Shown here: positions 10,481 through 17,813 of the stretch, piece after piece | Layout of the letters: every line of letters starts with the position of its first letter | Numbering within the stretch: the first letter of the stretch is position 1 | Source of the DNA: Planctomycetota bacterium | GTDB taxonomy: Bacteria; Planctomycetota; Planctomycetia; Pirellulales; Pirellulaceae | NCBI GenBank assembly: GCA_014381825.1 | Contig: JACNKX010000202.1 | Span: forward strand, 1 to 56,366 | DNA length: 56,366 nt | Reading direction: 5' to 3' | The notes under the pieces: model-generated | Databases searched by the model: none | What the model saw: the letters and a program-made list of their open reading frames with translations, nothing else | What the model was told of the DNA's origin: nothing | Position numbers and translations under genes: made by a program

Positions 10481-12298
10481 CTAAGGTGTTGAGGAACTTG
10501 TATCGGAACTACCGCTTGAGGAATCGGAGTCACTAACATCCGAATCTGACTTCGCCGCTTCGGACGCCTCCTCGTCAGCGGCTGGCGCGGTTGAATCGCT
10601 CGCGGCGGTTTCGGTCTTATCGGGGCCATCGGCTATCTCTTCATGCACTGCTGCATGGTCACCCGTGAACTTGATTTTGTTCTTCTCGAACCATTTATGT
10701 TCGGGGCGGGCGAGAATCTCGTCGATGACCGCTAATACGGCTTCCGCTTGCTCGCCTCTGCCGGCGGCAGCACCATGCTCCGCGATCTCCCGAGCTTGAG
10801 GAATCAACTCCTGATAGAACCGCTCGGCGACTTCGTACATCCCGTGCCAGTGAGCATAGTCGGGCGCCATCATCGAGGCACCGTGCCGGGCGCGGCGACC
10901 TTCATGATGCCAGAGATAGAACCAAGTCCACTCGATCTCGTCGTCGAATTGGGCTTTGCTGATTAGTTCGTTGCTGGTGAGCGCGCCCATGATCGCCTGG
11001 CCTGGCTTCGCGAACTTCTCGTTGTAATTAACGACGAAGTCATCGTATTGCTTGTAGAACGAATTGACATAGTTCTGTGTGTGGCAGTGAAGACAGACCT
11101 GCTGCATGTTTTGGCGTTTATCTTGCCAAGTGCTCGTCACCATTTCTCGCCGCTTTACGGGATCGGTTTCCTTCACAACCTTGCCGTTGATGTCGGTGTC
11201 CATGACGGCACTCACAGGCGGACGATTCGTCCACGAAAGCCGCTCGCCGGGGTCGTGCGTGATCTTCTCGCCGTTCAACATGTTGGCGGACATGTGGCAG
11301 GACGCGCAGGTTGGAGCTTGAGTATAGTCGCGACCGAGTACCCAATCTTTGGCATCGAGATTCATGTGTTCTTTCAAGTCGCGGAACGCGACGCCGTGCT
11401 TTGATTCTTCGTAGATCTCTTTCTGAGGATGATCGGGACCAAGGTGACACTTGCCACAGTTCTCTGGCTGCCGAGCACGTCGCGGTGAGAAATCGTGTCG
11501 CGAGTGACACGCCGAGCAAGAGCCTAGCGAGCCGTCGAGATTCAACCGCCCGATGCCTGTGTTTGGCCACGAACTGGGACTGAGAACAGGCCGACCACTT
11601 GCGTCATGCTTGATCAACGCCACGGCGTCTGGATTCGTCGGCTTGCCCGTCGCGTCGGGCTTCAGCTGTTCAACCGTTATCAAGCTGCCGTCCGTTCCTT
11701 CAAGAGCGACCTTGCTGCCGTGGCATTGCTTACAACCAACGTTGACGCTGGCCATACCGTTGACTGTGTCGATCGCCATTCCAGGTGTCGGCGAATGTGG
11801 ATTGAATCGTGTCAGCGACTCGATGACGTTGCCCTCTTCATCCGTGACATCTTCGCGGAATCCTTCGACAATCTCGGCCAGGCGGTTGTCGAGCGAAGCT
11901 AGAATGTTGCCCGCTTTCGCATGATGGCTGCGCTCGAACTCTTTGTGCTCGTTCTGATGACAGTGGCCACAGTCACGCGGTGTGACGACGGTTGCAATTG
12001 TATGGCCATAGTGCGCGAAGGCATCGACGTCGACCGGCGCGGCTTTGTGGCATTCCACACAACCGACACCCTTCACAGCGTGCGTACTGCCTTTCCAGTG
12101 ATCGATAATGCCCGGTGAAGACTTAGCATGACATTCAACACACTGTCGAGATGTCATCGGCACGGCGACGTGGTGTGCGGTAAGGCCGGCTTCCTCTTGC
12201 TTGCGGGTAACTTCCACCCACTGAACAAAGACCAGGGAGAGGAGAAAGATGAAACCAAGAATCGCAATAATGATTTGTTTTGCTCGTAGACTCATCAT
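10481..12298 (-). CDS. Membrane-anchored octaheme cytochrome c, hydroxylamine-oxidoreductase (HAO)-like
   Basis: A 605-residue protein with a single N-terminal membrane anchor (about 8-28) and eight C-x-x-C-H heme sites at residues 53, 80, 110, 189, 261, 281, 331 and 402 (first Cys). After heme 8 come W-H-H-E-G-R-R-A-R and P-D-Y-A-H-W-H-G (Tyr481), the region that in HAO carries the tyrosine cross-linked to the catalytic P460 heme. The cross-link is plausible here but unproven. The acidic Ser-rich tail is atypical. HAO-family enzymes oxidise hydroxylamine or hydrazine, or reduce nitrite when the tyrosine is absent. I start at 12298, behind GAGAAG and 47 bases after the cytochrome b stop; the longer frame from 12370 would overlap that gene. 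It is the last gene of a Rieske-cytochrome b operon and may replace cytochrome c1/f. Confidence 0.85.
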   Translation of the reverse strand: MMSLRAKQIIIAILGFIFLLSLVFVQWVEVTRKQEEAGLTAHHVAVPMTSRQCVECHAKSSPGIIDHWKGSTHAVKGVGCVECHKAAPVDVDAFAHYGHTIATVVTPRDCGHCHQNEHKEFERSHHAKAGNILASLDNRLAEIVEGFREDVTDEEGNVIESLTRFNPHSPTPGMAIDTVNGMASVNVGCKQCHGSKVALEGTDGSLITVEQLKPDATGKPTNPDAVALIKHDASGRPVLSPSSWPNTGIGRLNLDGSLGSCSACHSRHDFSPRRARQPENCGKCHLGPDHPQKEIYEESKHGVAFRDLKEHMNLDAKDWVLGRDYTQAPTCASCHMSANMLNGEKITHDPGERLSWTNRPPVSAVMDTDINGKVVKETDPVKRREMVTSTWQDKRQNMQQVCLHCHTQNYVNSFYKQYDDFVVNYNEKFAKPGQAIMGALTSNELISKAQFDDEIEWTWFYLWHHEGRRARHGASMMAPDYAHWHGMYEVAERFYQELIPQAREIAEHGAAAGRGEQAEAVLAVIDEILARPEHKWFEKNKIKFTGDHAAVHEEIADGPDKTETAASDSTAPAADEEASEAAKSDSDVSDSDSSSGSSDTSSSTP

Positions 12299-12345
12299 CT
12301 TCTCGTTTTGAATCCCAGTGAAATTGGTAACAACAATCGGTAGAG

Positions 12346-13395
12346 CTAGTGCGTGACGACAGCTTCCCAAACGGTCAATCCAACCAGTAACAACGTCGCG
12401 ACAATACCGATATAGACGCTGATCTCTTCTTTGCCAGTGATCTTTCTCAACGCGCCATCAATCCACGGCCACAGGAACATGGCTCCAACGATGAAGCCTG
12501 TACTCAGTACAGCGAAAGATAGCGAAAACAGTTTCAGCCAACGGAACGAGACGTAGAACCACCACTCCGGTTTGATAACTTCAGGCGTCGTCAGTGGGTC
12601 CGCCTTGGGGCCCATCATGACGGGAAAGATCGTCGATATCGCGCTGAGCAAGATCATCAACACCAGACCGATGGTAATCTCGGTGAGTAGGTGATCCGGA
12701 AAGAAGTTGAAGTGGCGAGGGGCATCATCAGATTCTTCTTCTGCTTGAAGTTCCGAGACACCATGTAGACGAATGAACATGATGTGGATGGCGATCAGTA
12801 GGATCATCGTCGCTGGCAGCACGGCTGCGTGCAGGATATAGAACCGCGAGAGCGTTCGCTCGTTGTAACTATCGCCACCGAGCAACATCTGCTTGGCGAA
12901 TCGTCCGGCCACCGGTACTGCGTCGCTGATGTTTGCTGCGACGGTTGCGCCCCAGTAGCTGAGTTGCTCGAACGCCAAACTGTAACCTGTGAATCCGATT
13001 AACAGCGTGCACATCAGTAGGCACATACCAATTAGCCAGTTGATTTCACGTGGGCGTCGATACGCTCCGGTGAAATAGACTCGCATCTGATGTAAGATTA
13101 CGGCGGCAATCATAAAGGTTGCGGCCCATTTATGCATGCTCCGGATAAACCAACCGTAACTGGCGTGGTCGGTGATATATGCAATCGAATCGTAGGCCGT
13201 CGTGGCAGACGGCTGATAATAGAACGCCAACAGAATGCCTGTGATGATCTGCACAACGAACAGATACGCGGGAGTTCCACCTAAACAGAACCACCATCGC
13301 TTCAGGTGATTCGGAACGGGTTCGTTCGTTAATTCGTGAAGCTGCGCCCCGCTGACGGGAACACGTTCCGCGAGCCACTCTGCAATGCGCGACAA
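12346..13395 (-). CDS. Cytochrome b6-type protein fused to a subunit IV-like region
   Basis: A 349-residue quinol-oxidising cytochrome b with about eight membrane segments. Heme ligands are H88/H102 and H189/H204; the spacing of 14 and 15 is that of cytochrome b6, not mitochondrial-type b (14 and 14). The motif W-W-F-C-L-G-G (Cys37) aligns with the b6 cysteine that covalently holds heme c-n (c-i). The C-terminal part contains P-E-W-W-F at 276-280, a variant of the quinol-site PEWY, so b6 and subunit IV are fused into one chain. It begins 3 bases after the Rieske stop and is followed by the octaheme cytochrome. It should oxidise menaquinol and pass one electron to the Rieske cluster. No cytochrome c1 or f gene is present. 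Confidence 0.9.
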   Translation of the reverse strand: MSRIAEWLAERVPVSGAQLHELTNEPVPNHLKRWWFCLGGTPAYLFVVQIITGILLAFYYQPSATTAYDSIAYITDHASYGWFIRSMHKWAATFMIAAVILHQMRVYFTGAYRRPREINWLIGMCLLMCTLLIGFTGYSLAFEQLSYWGATVAANISDAVPVAGRFAKQMLLGGDSYNERTLSRFYILHAAVLPATMILLIAIHIMFIRLHGVSELQAEEESDDAPRHFNFFPDHLLTEITIGLVLMILLSAISTIFPVMMGPKADPLTTPEVIKPEWWFYVSFRWLKLFSLSFAVLSTGFIVGAMFLWPWIDGALRKITGKEEISVYIGIVATLLLVGLTVWEAVVTH

Positions 13396-13398
13396 AGC

Positions 13399-13956
13399 CT
13401 ACGCCTCCGTCTCTTCGGAACGATTGTGATGCGACGGCTTTGTTGCGGATGCAATTCGTGTGCCCGTATCGAGGACCGATTGCAACGGAACTTCGATGAA
13501 CAGCAGCCCATCATCGACTTGCAGCGGGAATCGCGTGAGCTGTTGCCCGGCTGCGGCAGGAGGACCTTCTGTCGGATTGCCCTGCGGATCGAAGGCGCCG
13601 TTATGGCAAGGGCAGAAAAAGCGATCGTTTTGCGATTCCCAATGAACTGCACACCCGAGATGCGGGCAAACGCTGGAAAGCGCGATAAAATCTTCGGCTG
13701 TATCGCCGTCACTCTGCCGCGCGATAACGACCTTGGCACCACTTGGTGTTGTGTACGGCAATGACTCGCCAATGGAAAGCTGGTTGGTCCGACAGAGGAA
13801 CTGCCAACCCACGGAATCACCGTCGCTGGCATGGAGAAAGCGAATGGCCATGACACCAAGCGTCCCGTACCCGGCCGCTAATCCGCCCACCATTGCCGAC
13901 GATTCCATGAAGTGGCGTCTATTCACAGAGTCGTCCGATTGTTCTTCTGCCATCAT
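13399..13956 (-). CDS. Rieske [2Fe-2S] protein of a bc/b6f-type complex
   Basis: The Rieske cluster motifs are C-P-H-L-G-C (C97, H99, C102) and C-P-C-H-N-G (C115, C117, H118), counted from the ATG at 13956. The N-terminus has a twin-arginine-like R-R-H-F-M followed by a hydrophobic anchor (about 18-40), as expected for export of a folded iron-sulfur protein by Tat. The protein is about 185 residues. A longer frame from 14103 exists, but its first 49 residues are unlike the family, so I prefer 13956 (or the adjacent ATG at 13953). It is the first gene of the operon with cytochrome b and octaheme cytochrome and passes electrons from quinol to the c-type partner. Confidence 0.9.
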   Translation of the reverse strand: MMAEEQSDDSVNRRHFMESSAMVGGLAAGYGTLGVMAIRFLHASDGDSVGWQFLCRTNQLSIGESLPYTTPSGAKVVIARQSDGDTAEDFIALSSVCPHLGCAVHWESQNDRFFCPCHNGAFDPQGNPTEGPPAAAGQQLTRFPLQVDDGLLFIEVPLQSVLDTGTRIASATKPSHHNRSEETEA

Positions 13957-14248
13957 TAGTTCCACTTGGATATGCTCACCACGCGTGTTCCGAAACCGGA
14001 TCGCGCGCGTCAAGCTTGAGTTGGTTGTAGGAGAGACCATTCTCTCTTTAGTTATTGTTGTCGATCGAATGTGCGATAACGCGCGATACGTGCGAATACG
14101 CACATTCCGCGGGGCTTGTACAGCAGCAAGATCGCATCAGCGTTGCGGAACACGCCACTCGGTCACTGCGCAGAGTTCAAGAGGCAACTGGCGCGCCGCG
14201 ACGAACTCGCGCTGCCGTCGGGAATCTGGCAAGTTCCAGGAATGAACT

Positions 14249-15376
14249 TTACGAAGATTCGATCCAGCCGCCACCGAGTACACACTCGCCGTCGTAACAC
14301 ACGACCGCCTGACCGGGAGCGATGCCGAATGGCGCTTCGTCGAATTCGACATGGAGTCGTTGGCCAGCCAAGACTTTGGCTGTCGCCGGAATTGCGGGCG
14401 AGTTGTAACGGATTTGGGCATTGCAGCGGAACGGCCCGACGGGAGGATCGCTCAACCAATTTGTTTCGGCAGCGGTCAACTCAATGCTGGCGAGTTCATC
14501 ACGCTGACCAATGACAACCTGATTGAGTCCGGGATCGATTCGAGTCACAAAGTACGGCTCGCCCATCGCGACACCGAGTCCTTTGCGCTGACCGACGGTA
14601 AACCGCTCGATTCCGGAATGTTGGCCGACGACTTTGCCTGCCGTAGTAACGATCTCACCCGCCGTATCGATGTCGGTTCGGCGAGCGCGTACGAATTCGT
14701 CATGCTTGCCGCTGGTGACGAAACAGATTTCTTGGCTGTCCTTTTTCTCCGCAACATTCAGGCCCAAGCTGCTAGCGATCTCGCGAATCTTTGTCTTCTC
14801 ATAACCCCCGACCGGAAGCAACATCCGGGACAGCATGCGGCGCTCGATGCCGAACAGGACGTACGATTGATCCTTGGAATCGTCGATGCCCCGATAGAGT
14901 CGTGGTAACGCATCGTCGACTCCCGGAAGCAATCTGGCATAGTGACCGGTGGCCACGAACTCGGCGTCGACGCTGTCCGCATAGTCGAATAACTTTCCGA
15001 ACTTGATCCAATTGTTACACATGACGCACGGGTTGGGTGTACGACCGACCGTGTACTCGTCGACGAAGTAGTCGATGATTTGCCGAAACTCGGCTTGAAG
15101 ATTTAGCGCGTAGAATGGAATGCCCAACCGATCGGCGACGCGGCGACCGTCCTCGGCATCCGACGCGCTGCAACATCCTTGTTTGTGGTCGGCACGCTTG
15201 TTCAGAAGTGGCAGCAACGGGCTGTTGGCTTGGCTCCCGTCGACCGAGCACGCTTCGACTGCCTCTTCGCCGTGACGCATGAATACGCCAATTAGTTCAT
15301 GCCCCTGCTCGATCAGCAAGTGCGCGGCGACACTGCTGTCGACTCCGCCGGACATGGCTAAAACAACACGGGACAT
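14249..15376 (-). CDS. mnmA: tRNA-specific 2-thiouridylase MnmA
   Basis: MnmA transfers sulfur to U34 of tRNA-Lys, -Glu and -Gln in the cytoplasm. The ATP-binding PP-loop S-G-G-V-D-S is at 9-14. The catalytic cysteine lies in N-P-C-V-M-C (C117) and the second cysteine in S-Q-E-I-C-F-V (C218). G-H-Y-A-R and K-D-Q-S-Y-V-L are further hallmarks. Length (375) is normal. It is in the same orientation as the redoxin gene upstream, 69 bases away. A 145-base non-coding gap separates it from the extended Rieske reading frame downstream. Confidence 0.96.
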   Translation of the reverse strand: MSRVVLAMSGGVDSSVAAHLLIEQGHELIGVFMRHGEEAVEACSVDGSQANSPLLPLLNKRADHKQGCCSASDAEDGRRVADRLGIPFYALNLQAEFRQIIDYFVDEYTVGRTPNPCVMCNNWIKFGKLFDYADSVDAEFVATGHYARLLPGVDDALPRLYRGIDDSKDQSYVLFGIERRMLSRMLLPVGGYEKTKIREIASSLGLNVAEKKDSQEICFVTSGKHDEFVRARRTDIDTAGEIVTTAGKVVGQHSGIERFTVGQRKGLGVAMGEPYFVTRIDPGLNQVVIGQRDELASIELTAAETNWLSDPPVGPFRCNAQIRYNSPAIPATAKVLAGQRLHVEFDEAPFGIAPGQAVVCYDGECVLGGGWIESS

Positions 15377-15445
15377 AACAAATCGACAGAGGTTGAAGCG
15401 AATTAGGTAAAGCGTGCGAGTGTCGTAGATCGCGACGATTCCATC

Positions 15446-16024
15446 CTATCGGTCGCTGTCTTCGCCAACAACGTTAGCGCCGGCAAGAATCCTTAACTGC
15501 TCGATCAGTTCATCGTTTGTCGGTTGATCCGCAGAGTGTTGTGGCATGTGGATGTAGCCGACGATACCTTTGCCATCGACGATGAATGATCCATGAAGTT
15601 GCAGAACATCACCGACGGGCTTTCCGATACCAGCTCGAAGCGTTGCTTTAAGCCCGCCCGCCCAAACGGCTGGCCCAGCTACCTGCAGGACGCTCGCGCG
15701 CGGAACGCCGAATGCCTGATACGCGACGCGATTGGGATCTGCCAAGCAAATAAAAGGGAGTTGGTTTCGATCACGAAAAGCGGCGGTTTGCTCAACGGAT
15801 CCCATCGTGATCACCGCGACGTCGCCTTTCGCGTCGAGAAATCGATCATAGTCATTTCGCACGTCGACCACGTGCTCGCGGCACATCGGTCATCCAAAGT
15901 GGCGGACGAACAACAGCACTCGCGGTTGCGACGACCAGAGAGAAGCCAACGAAACCATCTGCCCTTCATGGTTGGATAGCGTGACGTCGGGCGCTCGGTC
16001 GCCGGTGGCAAGTTTTGTATTCAC
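15446..16024 (-). CDS. AhpC/TSA-type peroxiredoxin-like selenoprotein (in-frame TGA = Sec45)
   Basis: Ordinary gene calling gives 146 residues from an ATG at 15886, but that start lies inside the redox motif. The same frame runs upstream through a TGA at 15892-15890 to a GTG at 16024, with no other start before the TAA further upstream. The full product is 192 residues. It begins with A-T-G-D-R-A-P-D-V-T-L-S, the usual opening of AhpC/TSA redoxins, and reads L-L-F-V-R-H-F-G-U-P-M-C-R-E-H across the TGA. Homologs of this PRXL2/AhpC-TSA_2 type have Cys at the U position, giving a U-x-x-C pair (Sec45, Cys48). A SECIS-like hairpin follows at the expected distance. The rest is a normal thioredoxin fold (V-A-V-I-T-M-G, L-H-G-S-F-I-V-D). 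It needs selA, selB, selC and selD, which are not in this window. Likely role: thiol peroxidase or disulfide reductase. Confidence 0.85.
15859..15875 (-). promoter_or_regulatory. SECIS-like hairpin downstream of the redoxin TGA
   Basis: On the minus strand GCACGTGGTCGACGTGC forms a perfect 6-bp stem (GCACGT/ACGTGC) around loop GGTCG. The loop starts 20 bases after the TGA. The E. coli fdhF SECIS has a GGUC(U) loop on a short stem 18 bases after its UGA, and bacterial SECIS elements fall about 16-37 bases downstream, so loop and spacing both fit binding by SelB. Confidence 0.75.
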
Positions 16025-16243
16025 AGAATTGGAGAGAGATCTTGGTTAATGGTCGAATTCGCTCGCGTTATCGAGCCGTCGTAGATTGGTGCAGTAATTG
16101 GCACACGCAATGCTTTTAACAATTCTCAAGTCTACCAGAGGACACGAAACCGTTGATAATCCACCCACCGCAATACATTGGTAGGACAACTTTGCAAAAC
16201 ACCAAAGATTGGGGTTGTAAAGATTTCAATACCGGGCCACATT

Positions 16244-16394: not shown

Positions 16395-17813
16395 ATGGTC
16401 ACTTTCAACGCTCTTGCGCTCGTTGTCGCTCTGACTGGAGCCGGCGAAACCGTCTTGCTGGACTTTACGTCTCCGACTTGTGGACCTTGTCTTACCATGG
16501 AGCCGACGCTTGGACGCTTGACGCGCGACGGGTATCCCGTCAAACAGATCGACGTTACCCAACATCCGGACATCGCCGCGCAATTCAAGATCACTGGCGT
16601 TCCATCCTTCGTGATGATTGCGAACGGTCACGAAGTTGATCGCGTTGTCGGGGCATGCAGTCACGCGCGACTTGTCGAGATGTTCACGGCGGCCAAGCCC
16701 GATTCGTCGAGTGGCCCGCCAAACAGTCCACGCCCTTCAAGTTTCAATGAGCCTTCAAGTTTCAATGAGATTGTGCGGGCGCAATCGCCTGATTCAAACC
16801 TTGTTTCGATCGCCGATTCGAATCAGCACACGACCGACCCTCGTCGCAGCGCTTATGACGCAACGATTCGACTTAAGATCGAAGACGCGAATGGCCATTC
16901 AGTTGGGACGGGTACAATCGTCGACACACATGGCCACGAAGCACTGGCGATGACTTGCGGCCACATCTTCCGCGATTCAGGCGGACAAGGTCGTGTGCTC
17001 GTCGATCTGTTTCCCGACGGCCAGCTTCGTACCGTTGAAGGAACTCTCATTAGCTACGATCTCACTCGCGACATTGGATTGGTCAGCTTCGTACCAGGGT
17101 TTGCAGTTTCCCCAGTAAGGATCGCGCCAGCTGGCTATCGGTTTGCGAAGGGTGATGCCGTCTTCAGCGTCGGTTGTGACAACGGCAGCGAGCCGAGTGT
17201 CCGAGACAGTCGAATCAGTTCGATCGATCGTTACGTCGGCCCGCCCAACATTGAAACGACTGGCGAGCCGGCACAGGGACGCAGCGGCGGCGGCTTGTTC
17301 TCGCGAGATGGCATTCTTATCGGGATTTGTAATCACGGTGACCCCAGTGACGATGAAGGGATTTATGCTTCGTTGCCTACCATCCATTGGGAACTCGATC
17401 GTGTCGGACAACGCCGGCTGTATCAGCCGAGCGCGGAAGCGTTTGCGATGCAAAGTTTGTCTCCCAGTCGCATCGAGCCTCGTCGTATTGAGGCGAACCC
17501 TTTGGCAACTGCCCAAGTTGTCTCGCCGGCTGACAGTACTCCGATCGGATTGCGAGATCGTTCTCCCGGCGACACGGAAGTTATTTGCATTGTGAGATCC
17601 AAAGGCAACCCCCGAGCACAGGAGCAGGTGTTCGTGTTAGAGCAACCCTCGTCTGATCTGCTCAACCGGTTGGCCAGAGAATCGCGAGGAGCCGTCTCGA
17701 CAAACCAAGTTGCAACTCGACACGTCCGCCCGCTAGCCTCGCGCCCGAACGTGATCCGACCGATCGCTCAAGGTGAGCCGGTTGTGCGAGCGCAATCCGG
17801 TGACCAGCGGTAG
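16395..17813 (+). CDS. Thioredoxin domain fused to a trypsin-like serine protease domain
   Basis: A 472-residue protein. Residues 15-100 form a thioredoxin fold with active site C29-G-P-C32 and cis-proline in T-G-V-P-S-F (about 67-72). A low-complexity linker holds two copies of P-S-S-F-N-E. Residues about 153-340 are a chymotrypsin/HtrA-like protease with the triad His190 (T-C-G-H-I-F), Asp226 (R-D-I-G-L-V) and Ser297 (G-R-S-G-G-G). The last 130 residues look disordered, with R/Q/P/S-rich sequence. There is no classical signal peptide, only a hydrophobic start (about 5-15), so location is uncertain. The fusion couples thiol redox with proteolysis, possibly in protein quality control. It is divergent from the selenoprotein gene. 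A small membrane-protein gene follows. Confidence 0.85.
   Translation: MVTFNALALVVALTGAGETVLLDFTSPTCGPCLTMEPTLGRLTRDGYPVKQIDVTQHPDIAAQFKITGVPSFVMIANGHEVDRVVGACSHARLVEMFTAAKPDSSSGPPNSPRPSSFNEPSSFNEIVRAQSPDSNLVSIADSNQHTTDPRRSAYDATIRLKIEDANGHSVGTGTIVDTHGHEALAMTCGHIFRDSGGQGRVLVDLFPDGQLRTVEGTLISYDLTRDIGLVSFVPGFAVSPVRIAPAGYRFAKGDAVFSVGCDNGSEPSVRDSRISSIDRYVGPPNIETTGEPAQGRSGGGLFSRDGILIGICNHGDPSDDEGIYASLPTIHWELDRVGQRRLYQPSAEAFAMQSLSPSRIEPRRIEANPLATAQVVSPADSTPIGLRDRSPGDTEVICIVRSKGNPRAQEQVFVLEQPSSDLLNRLARESRGAVSTNQVATRHVRPLASRPNVIRPIAQGEPVVRAQSGDQR
16734..16769 (+). repeat. Tandem 18-base repeat within the thioredoxin-protease linker
   Basis: The unit CCTTCAAGTTTCAATGAG occurs twice without a gap or mismatch and encodes the duplicated P-S-S-F-N-E in the linker. 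An in-frame unit of this size can expand or contract without breaking the gene. Confidence 0.9.

Follow-up and report, generated by a model that had tools for sequence, protein, structure and literature searches.

The redoxin locus and its surroundings

The window analysed here, a stretch of 56,366 nucleotides from a member of the Planctomycetota (contig JACNKX010000202.1), contains on its minus strand a gene that very probably encodes a selenoprotein, a SelL-related redoxin of the AhpC-TSA family with 192 amino acids (15446..16024). The reading frame opens with GTG at 16024, closes with TAG at 15448-15446 and is interrupted by a single TGA at 15892-15890, in the codon of residue 45, exactly as the preliminary description had reported. 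This TGA lies on the minus strand in the active-site context G-U-P-M-C-R-E-H, in which Cys48 (15881..15883, minus strand) is the second residue of a U-x-x-C motif. Mechanical ORF calling yielded a product of 146 amino acids that starts from an ATG at 15886, two codons past the TGA. A gene caller without a selenocysteine model would therefore drop the N-terminus together with the active-site residue, as had been predicted; the missing part, 46 of 192 residues, is a quarter of the protein and not the third that was stated.

With the TGA read as selenocysteine, the Pfam family AhpC-TSA spans residues 8-157 of the product (E 1.3e-19) and hence both sides of the TGA. Redoxin matches residues 7-108, and AhpC-TSA_2 (PF13911) matches residues 57-160. 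The ratio pN/pS was compared without gaps in 15 pairs of six genes and ranged from 0.22 to 0.70 in the 38 codons preceding the TGA and from 0.13 to 0.74 in the 59 codons following it; the values are rough, because saturation is close or already reached at synonymous sites (dS saturated in three of the 15 pairs). The ratios before the TGA are consistent with an upstream part that is translated as protein. Together with the domain match across the TGA, they agree with the coding character which had been proposed for this part.

The gene mnmA (14249-15376; Pfam tRNA_Me_trans) follows the redoxin gene downstream in the same orientation. The two genes also adjoin each other in the related genomes G001 and G002; in five other relatives, the flanks that were read revealed no mnmA. 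On the upstream side, a divergently oriented gene on the plus strand (16395-17813) codes for a fusion protein with thioredoxin and trypsin-like peptidase domains. It is kept beside the redoxin in G002 and was not found beside it in G001. Further downstream, a minus-strand cluster for a multihaem cytochrome, a cytochrome b and a Rieske protein (10481-14103) resembles a bc1 complex with a multihaem partner. A contig search for relatives of the redoxin locus returned only two, both from Planctomycetota MAGs.

Selenocysteine machinery in the genome

A search for selA, selB, selC and selD in the genome of the window (9.69 Mb, 238 contigs) had been suggested as a check, and all four genes were found. 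The tRNA-Sec scored 67 bits (contig C119), and ARAGORN assigned it the anticodon TCA. The genes selB (352 bits) and selA (565 bits) adjoin each other on contig C59. The selD gene on contig C135 (345 bits) has an in-frame TGA of its own within C-A-G-U-A-G-K, presumably the usual Sec/Cys site of selD. A stem with the loop GGUCG is located 32 bases past this UGA and is present in the lowest-energy fold. A second selD match (contig C45, 42491-43399; 284 bits) has no in-frame TGA and may represent a fused selD, because it is situated inside an open frame of 741 amino acids.

Selenocysteine and cysteine forms among relatives

The window protein was searched in 117 related genomes, 103 of which gave a match at E 0.001, and all 41 TGA-flagged rows among the matches listed were read. 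Within these matches, 45 genes were compared, the window gene included: 32 have TGA at the codon of residue 45 and 13 have a codon for Cys. The TGA genes comprise 17 of the best 30 loci (L016-L045) and 15 further ones (L054-L068). The other 13 of the best 30 loci all have TGC or TGT, and thus Cys, at residue 45, so that the TGA does occupy the Cys position of the relatives as the preliminary description had claimed. No other in-frame stop was observed between -35 and +109 in the stretches at hand of the 32 TGA genes; for L028 the stretch covers 64 residues past the Sec site, and for L054-L068 frames with TAA or TAG between -25 and +60 had been excluded beforehand by a filter. Nine TGA-flagged rows stand outside these counts. 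Seven of them belong to another redoxin group described below, and the rows of G030 and G008 show Cys at this position, their TGA being at the gene end; selB was above the cut-off in neither genome.

The active-site stretch conserved among the relatives is R-H-x-x-U/C-x-x-C. In 246 genomes drawn from the phylum, ten matched at E 1e-20, six of these with a TGA, the window gene included (the position of the TGA was read in the window gene only). A plasmid search with the window protein gave 11 weak matches, all below 60% identity.

At least two changes between Sec and Cys are required on a tree built from 51 proteins, for which the program warned of long branches. One of the changes sets nine Cys proteins apart as a clade. 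The window subgroup contains 13 proteins, nine with Sec and the Cys pairs L021/L026 and L023/L024, and how these pairs branch relative to each other has weak support. Since the change just named belongs to the nine-Cys clade, the subgroup itself needs at least one Sec/Cys change, and more than one switch inside it seems possible from the tree.

The 32 TGA genes come from 29 genomes, that of the window included, and a tRNA-Sec of at least 62 bits was present in all 29. SelB was above the cut-off in 26 of them. Among the 12 genomes for which the Cys form alone was read, tRNA-Sec was found in four and selB in four; G029, a Cys genome that also holds a TGA gene, was counted among the 29. The difference in tRNA-Sec between TGA-form and Cys-form genomes gave a Fisher p of 5e-6, and against the background of 65 in 117 genomes the chance of all 29 falling among those with tRNA-Sec was 1e-9; both values ignore kinship, and the counts and p-values overstate independence because the redoxin sequences are related. 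Across the 117 genomes, 61 combined selB with a strong tRNA-Sec, four had selB only and four a strong tRNA-Sec only.

The line of 62 bits was chosen after seeing the data and lies in the gap between 62.2 bits and the next match at 58.9 bits. At the Rfam cut-off of 47 bits, 90 of the 117 genomes would count as having tRNA-Sec, and five of 14 control genomes match as well; the matches below 62 bits were taken for look-alikes. SelB above the cut-off was absent in the TGA-form genomes G004, G036 and G065. The SelB search recovered a C-terminal half in G036 and, in G004 and G065, only matches sized like other elongation factors. G070, from the same genus as G004, has a full SelB. The missing selB of G004, a genome rated 99% complete, is assumed to be a gap.

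The hairpin downstream of the UGA

A SECIS-like hairpin lies shortly past the TGA on the minus strand (15859..15875). It consists of a 6-bp stem, GCACGU/ACGUGC, which begins 14 bases past the TGA, and the loop GGUCG (15869-15865), which begins 20 bases past it; this is the geometry that had been reported before. According to the accessible text of PMC1088965, the bacterial SECIS is a hairpin that immediately follows the UGA and whose small apical loop contains a G. The window hairpin, with the loop GGUCG 20 bases past the UGA and with covariation in relatives, corresponds to that description. An Rfam scan of 15400-16100 returned no SECIS family. By itself the window hairpin proves little, because 17% of synonymous recodings also reach six of six pairs (p = 0.17).

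The TGA genes fall into two registers, one with a loop GGUNN from 20 bases past the UGA (register A) and one with a loop AGUU from 25 bases past it (register B). The pairs of register A are kept in 60 of 60 cases in ten genes, the window gene included (synonymous null 45.9, sd 2.6, z 5.5), and those of register B in 126 of 132 cases in 22 genes, all with the loop AGUU (null 88.1, sd 4.7, z 8.0); both z values are somewhat inflated, because the registers were assigned by eye after seeing the alignment rows. The two-sided changes in register A include G-C to A-U and C-G to G-C, and five cells changed on both sides. The 13 Cys genes retained 29 of 78 pairs in register A and 25 of 78 in register B, no better than the null. 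Register-B genes pair above the synonymous null when tested in register A (99 of 132 pairs, null 79.6, z 5.3), so that this null cannot serve as a clean control. Covariation scores of 0.363 for register A and 0.534 for register B were each reached by none of 500 shuffles, and the maxima for slid registers were 0.167 and 0.117. Doubly changed pairs were not unusually numerous, since 111 and 328 of 500 shuffles had at least as many. Judging by these aligned genes, the TGA genes, but not the Cys genes, have preserved the hairpin through compensatory changes.

Folding was calculated from two starting points, counting the TGA as bases 1-3. When bases 4-50 of the window gene were folded, another structure had the minimum energy (no pair of the six, mean probability 0.45 for the stem). 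When the fold began at base 12, which mimics a ribosome sitting on the UGA, the stem was predicted with all six pairs and a mean probability of 0.90. The register-A stem was part of the lowest-energy structure in five of ten genes from base 4 and in all ten from base 12, and the register-B stem in 16 of 22 and 18 of 22 genes, respectively. Among the 13 Cys genes, one had the register-A stem and none the register-B stem in the lowest-energy structure, from either base.

Two single genes deserve mention. L029 has a register-A hairpin though the tree groups its protein with register-B proteins. The Cys form L021 (G021:C1:8417561-8418079), whose genome contains selB and tRNA-Sec, keeps five of six register-A pairs, which is not significant (null 4.79); this pairing is possibly the relic of a lost Sec site.

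A second group of UGA redoxins

Seven TGA-flagged rows share the motif R-S-A-D/S-W-U-P and represent another redoxin group. One of them, L069, is encoded in the genome of the window (G000:C75:8293-8697, minus strand); it reads R-S-A-D-W-U-P-F-C with the TGA at the active site and has relatives in six other genomes. Its RNA can form GCAGUU/AACUGC with the loop GGUCG at the same place as in the window gene, and its lowest-energy fold differs from this. In the genomes of this group, selB was above the cut-off in seven of seven and tRNA-Sec reached at least 62 bits in five of seven. No tRNA-Sec of at least 62 bits was found in G016 and G074, both with selB and a UGA redoxin, a laxer second search included, which points either to an assembly gap or to an unusual tRNA-Sec. 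The copy L075 (G018:C315) has an in-frame TAG shortly past the UGA; it is possibly decayed or an error and was excluded from the tree of 51 proteins.

Reading of the in-frame UGA

We consider it very probable that the TGA is read as selenocysteine, because the relatives keep both the codon and the RNA hairpin and the genome has the machinery. The selenoprotein proposed in the preliminary description is thereby supported, with Cys homologues at residue 45 and redoxin sequence in the upstream part; none of the three findings named there as grounds for rejecting it was obtained. The frame is admittedly interrupted, and the ATG two codons later opens an ORF of 146 amino acids, as expected of a pseudogene or of a sequencing error at the TGA, in which case translation would be confined to the downstream ORF or absent. 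Yet among the matches listed, 29 genomes, that of the window included, share this TGA in a total of 32 genes. Changes in the preceding codons are mainly synonymous, further in-frame stops are missing from the stretches at hand, and the hairpin covaries, all of which makes such a defect exceedingly improbable. Hardly any weight can be given either to a reading in which translation starts at the ATG of 15886, so that the shorter product is the real protein and the part before it is untranslated. This product is what mechanical ORF calling yields, but it would be without residues 1-46, residue 45 among them, and the codons further upstream show conservation at the protein level.

That the UGA yields a different residue, e.g. 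Trp or Cys, through readthrough or reassignment has a marginally better but still very small chance. DNA comparison alone cannot name the inserted residue; on the other hand, the TGA sits at the Cys position of the relatives, tRNA-Sec is present in the TGA-form genomes, with the anticodon TCA in the window's own, and the hairpin past the UGA is conserved. In the favored reading as selenocysteine, SelB and the Sec-tRNA would bind the hairpin with the loop GGUCG just past the UGA and Sec would be inserted at residue 45, giving a SelL-related redoxin of 192 residues with a U-x-x-C active site. In the redoxin set, nature has provided the Sec and the Cys form of one enzyme for comparison across related genomes. 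Two hairpin registers that rely on one kind of machinery can be compared in it as well.

Active site and proposed chemistry

The preliminary description had regarded Sec45 as the peroxidatic residue. This assignment is at odds with the phmmer alignment to the Bcp of Aeropyrum (2cx3), in which Sec45 is opposite the Ser of S-P-V-C and Cys48 opposite its Cys, which we take to be the peroxidatic Cys of that protein. The same alignment would suit a selenoprotein that is a genuine peroxiredoxin in function, in which Cys48 is peroxidatic and Sec45 resolving. We regard this as rather unlikely, though clearly less so than the readings without selenocysteine discussed above, as the conserved R-H-x-x-U/C-x-x-C also aligns with the C-x-x-C of the prostamide/prostaglandin F synthase 9us9 and the score for the thiol peroxidase model PRK09437 is far under its cut-off.

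From the motif and these alignments we infer a thioredoxin-like Sec-x-x-Cys reductase. In such chemistry, the selenolate of Sec45 would attack a peroxide, endoperoxide or disulfide substrate, Cys48 would then close a selenenylsulfide, and a cellular thiol system would reduce it. An AlphaFold model of the redoxin from three sequences (mean pLDDT 49.4) was too poor to inform the mechanism. A wider scenario may be put forward tentatively, and we would sooner doubt than accept it in full: SelL-related redoxins might be widespread planctomycete selenoproteins with more than one Cys/Sec swap and the hairpin registers A and B, in which Sec replaced the Thr or Ser of a former peroxiredoxin site to give a selenenylsulfide reductase of peroxides or endoperoxides.

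Relation to known redoxins and selenoproteins

The NCBIfam model NF040769 (SelL-related redox protein) matched residues 10-176 of the window product with 135.3 bits, above the curated cut-off of 120. A TGA relative of register B, L031, reached 187.8 bits. The Cys relative L033 scored above the cut-off as well (131.9) and the Cys relative L021 just below it (112.2). SelL proper carries a U-x-x-U diselenide motif; this is absent from the window product, which has G-U-P-M-C instead. A term search for 'SelL-related' or NF040769 found no paper, and a search for SelU with AhpC turned up only SelU as the tRNA 2-selenouridine synthase, in the accessible part of a review.

The similarity to the Bcp/PrxQ peroxiredoxin 2cx3 extends over window residues 7-107 (phmmer E 4.8e-10), and the site there is S-x-x-C. 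PRK09437, the next NCBIfam model, gave 39.4 bits, far short of its curated cut-off of 140. The window protein also differs from Sec peroxiredoxins of the T-x-x-U type, since its Sec45 is placed opposite the Ser and its Cys48 opposite the Cys of 2cx3. In 9us9, presumably of eukaryotic origin, the C-x-x-C lies opposite the U-x-x-C of the window protein (phmmer E 8.7e-6), with Cys at the site where the window protein has Sec.

Among the bacterial selenoproteins, the accessible parts of the literature include Prx-like proteins of pfam00578 with U-x-x-C, such as the Prx-like thiol:disulfide oxidoreductase and GOS Prx-like 1 (PMC9312934, PMC13188914, PMC2398784), and reviews name a U-x-x-C redoxin family protein (PMC9312934, PMC13188914). 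The window gene shares the AhpC-TSA domain and the U-x-x-C motif with the pfam00578 proteins, judging by the available descriptions, and may belong with them. A peroxiredoxin-like family protein of pfam13911/cd02970 is likewise counted as a bacterial selenoprotein in the portions available of PMC9312934 and PMC13188914. PF13911 matches both, but that protein has U-x-x-S where the window protein has U-x-x-C.

For planctomycetes, the accessible text of PMC4807772 describes two members from Porphyra that have complete gene sets for Sec insertion along with putative selenoproteins; complete sets are also given there for G. obscuriglobus and I. pallida. A relative of the window gene may already be contained in candidate table S9 of that study. 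As far as these partly available sources go, the window gene extends the reported planctomycete selenoproteins (PMC4807772) by a member of a selenoprotein kind that is already known, and not by a new class.
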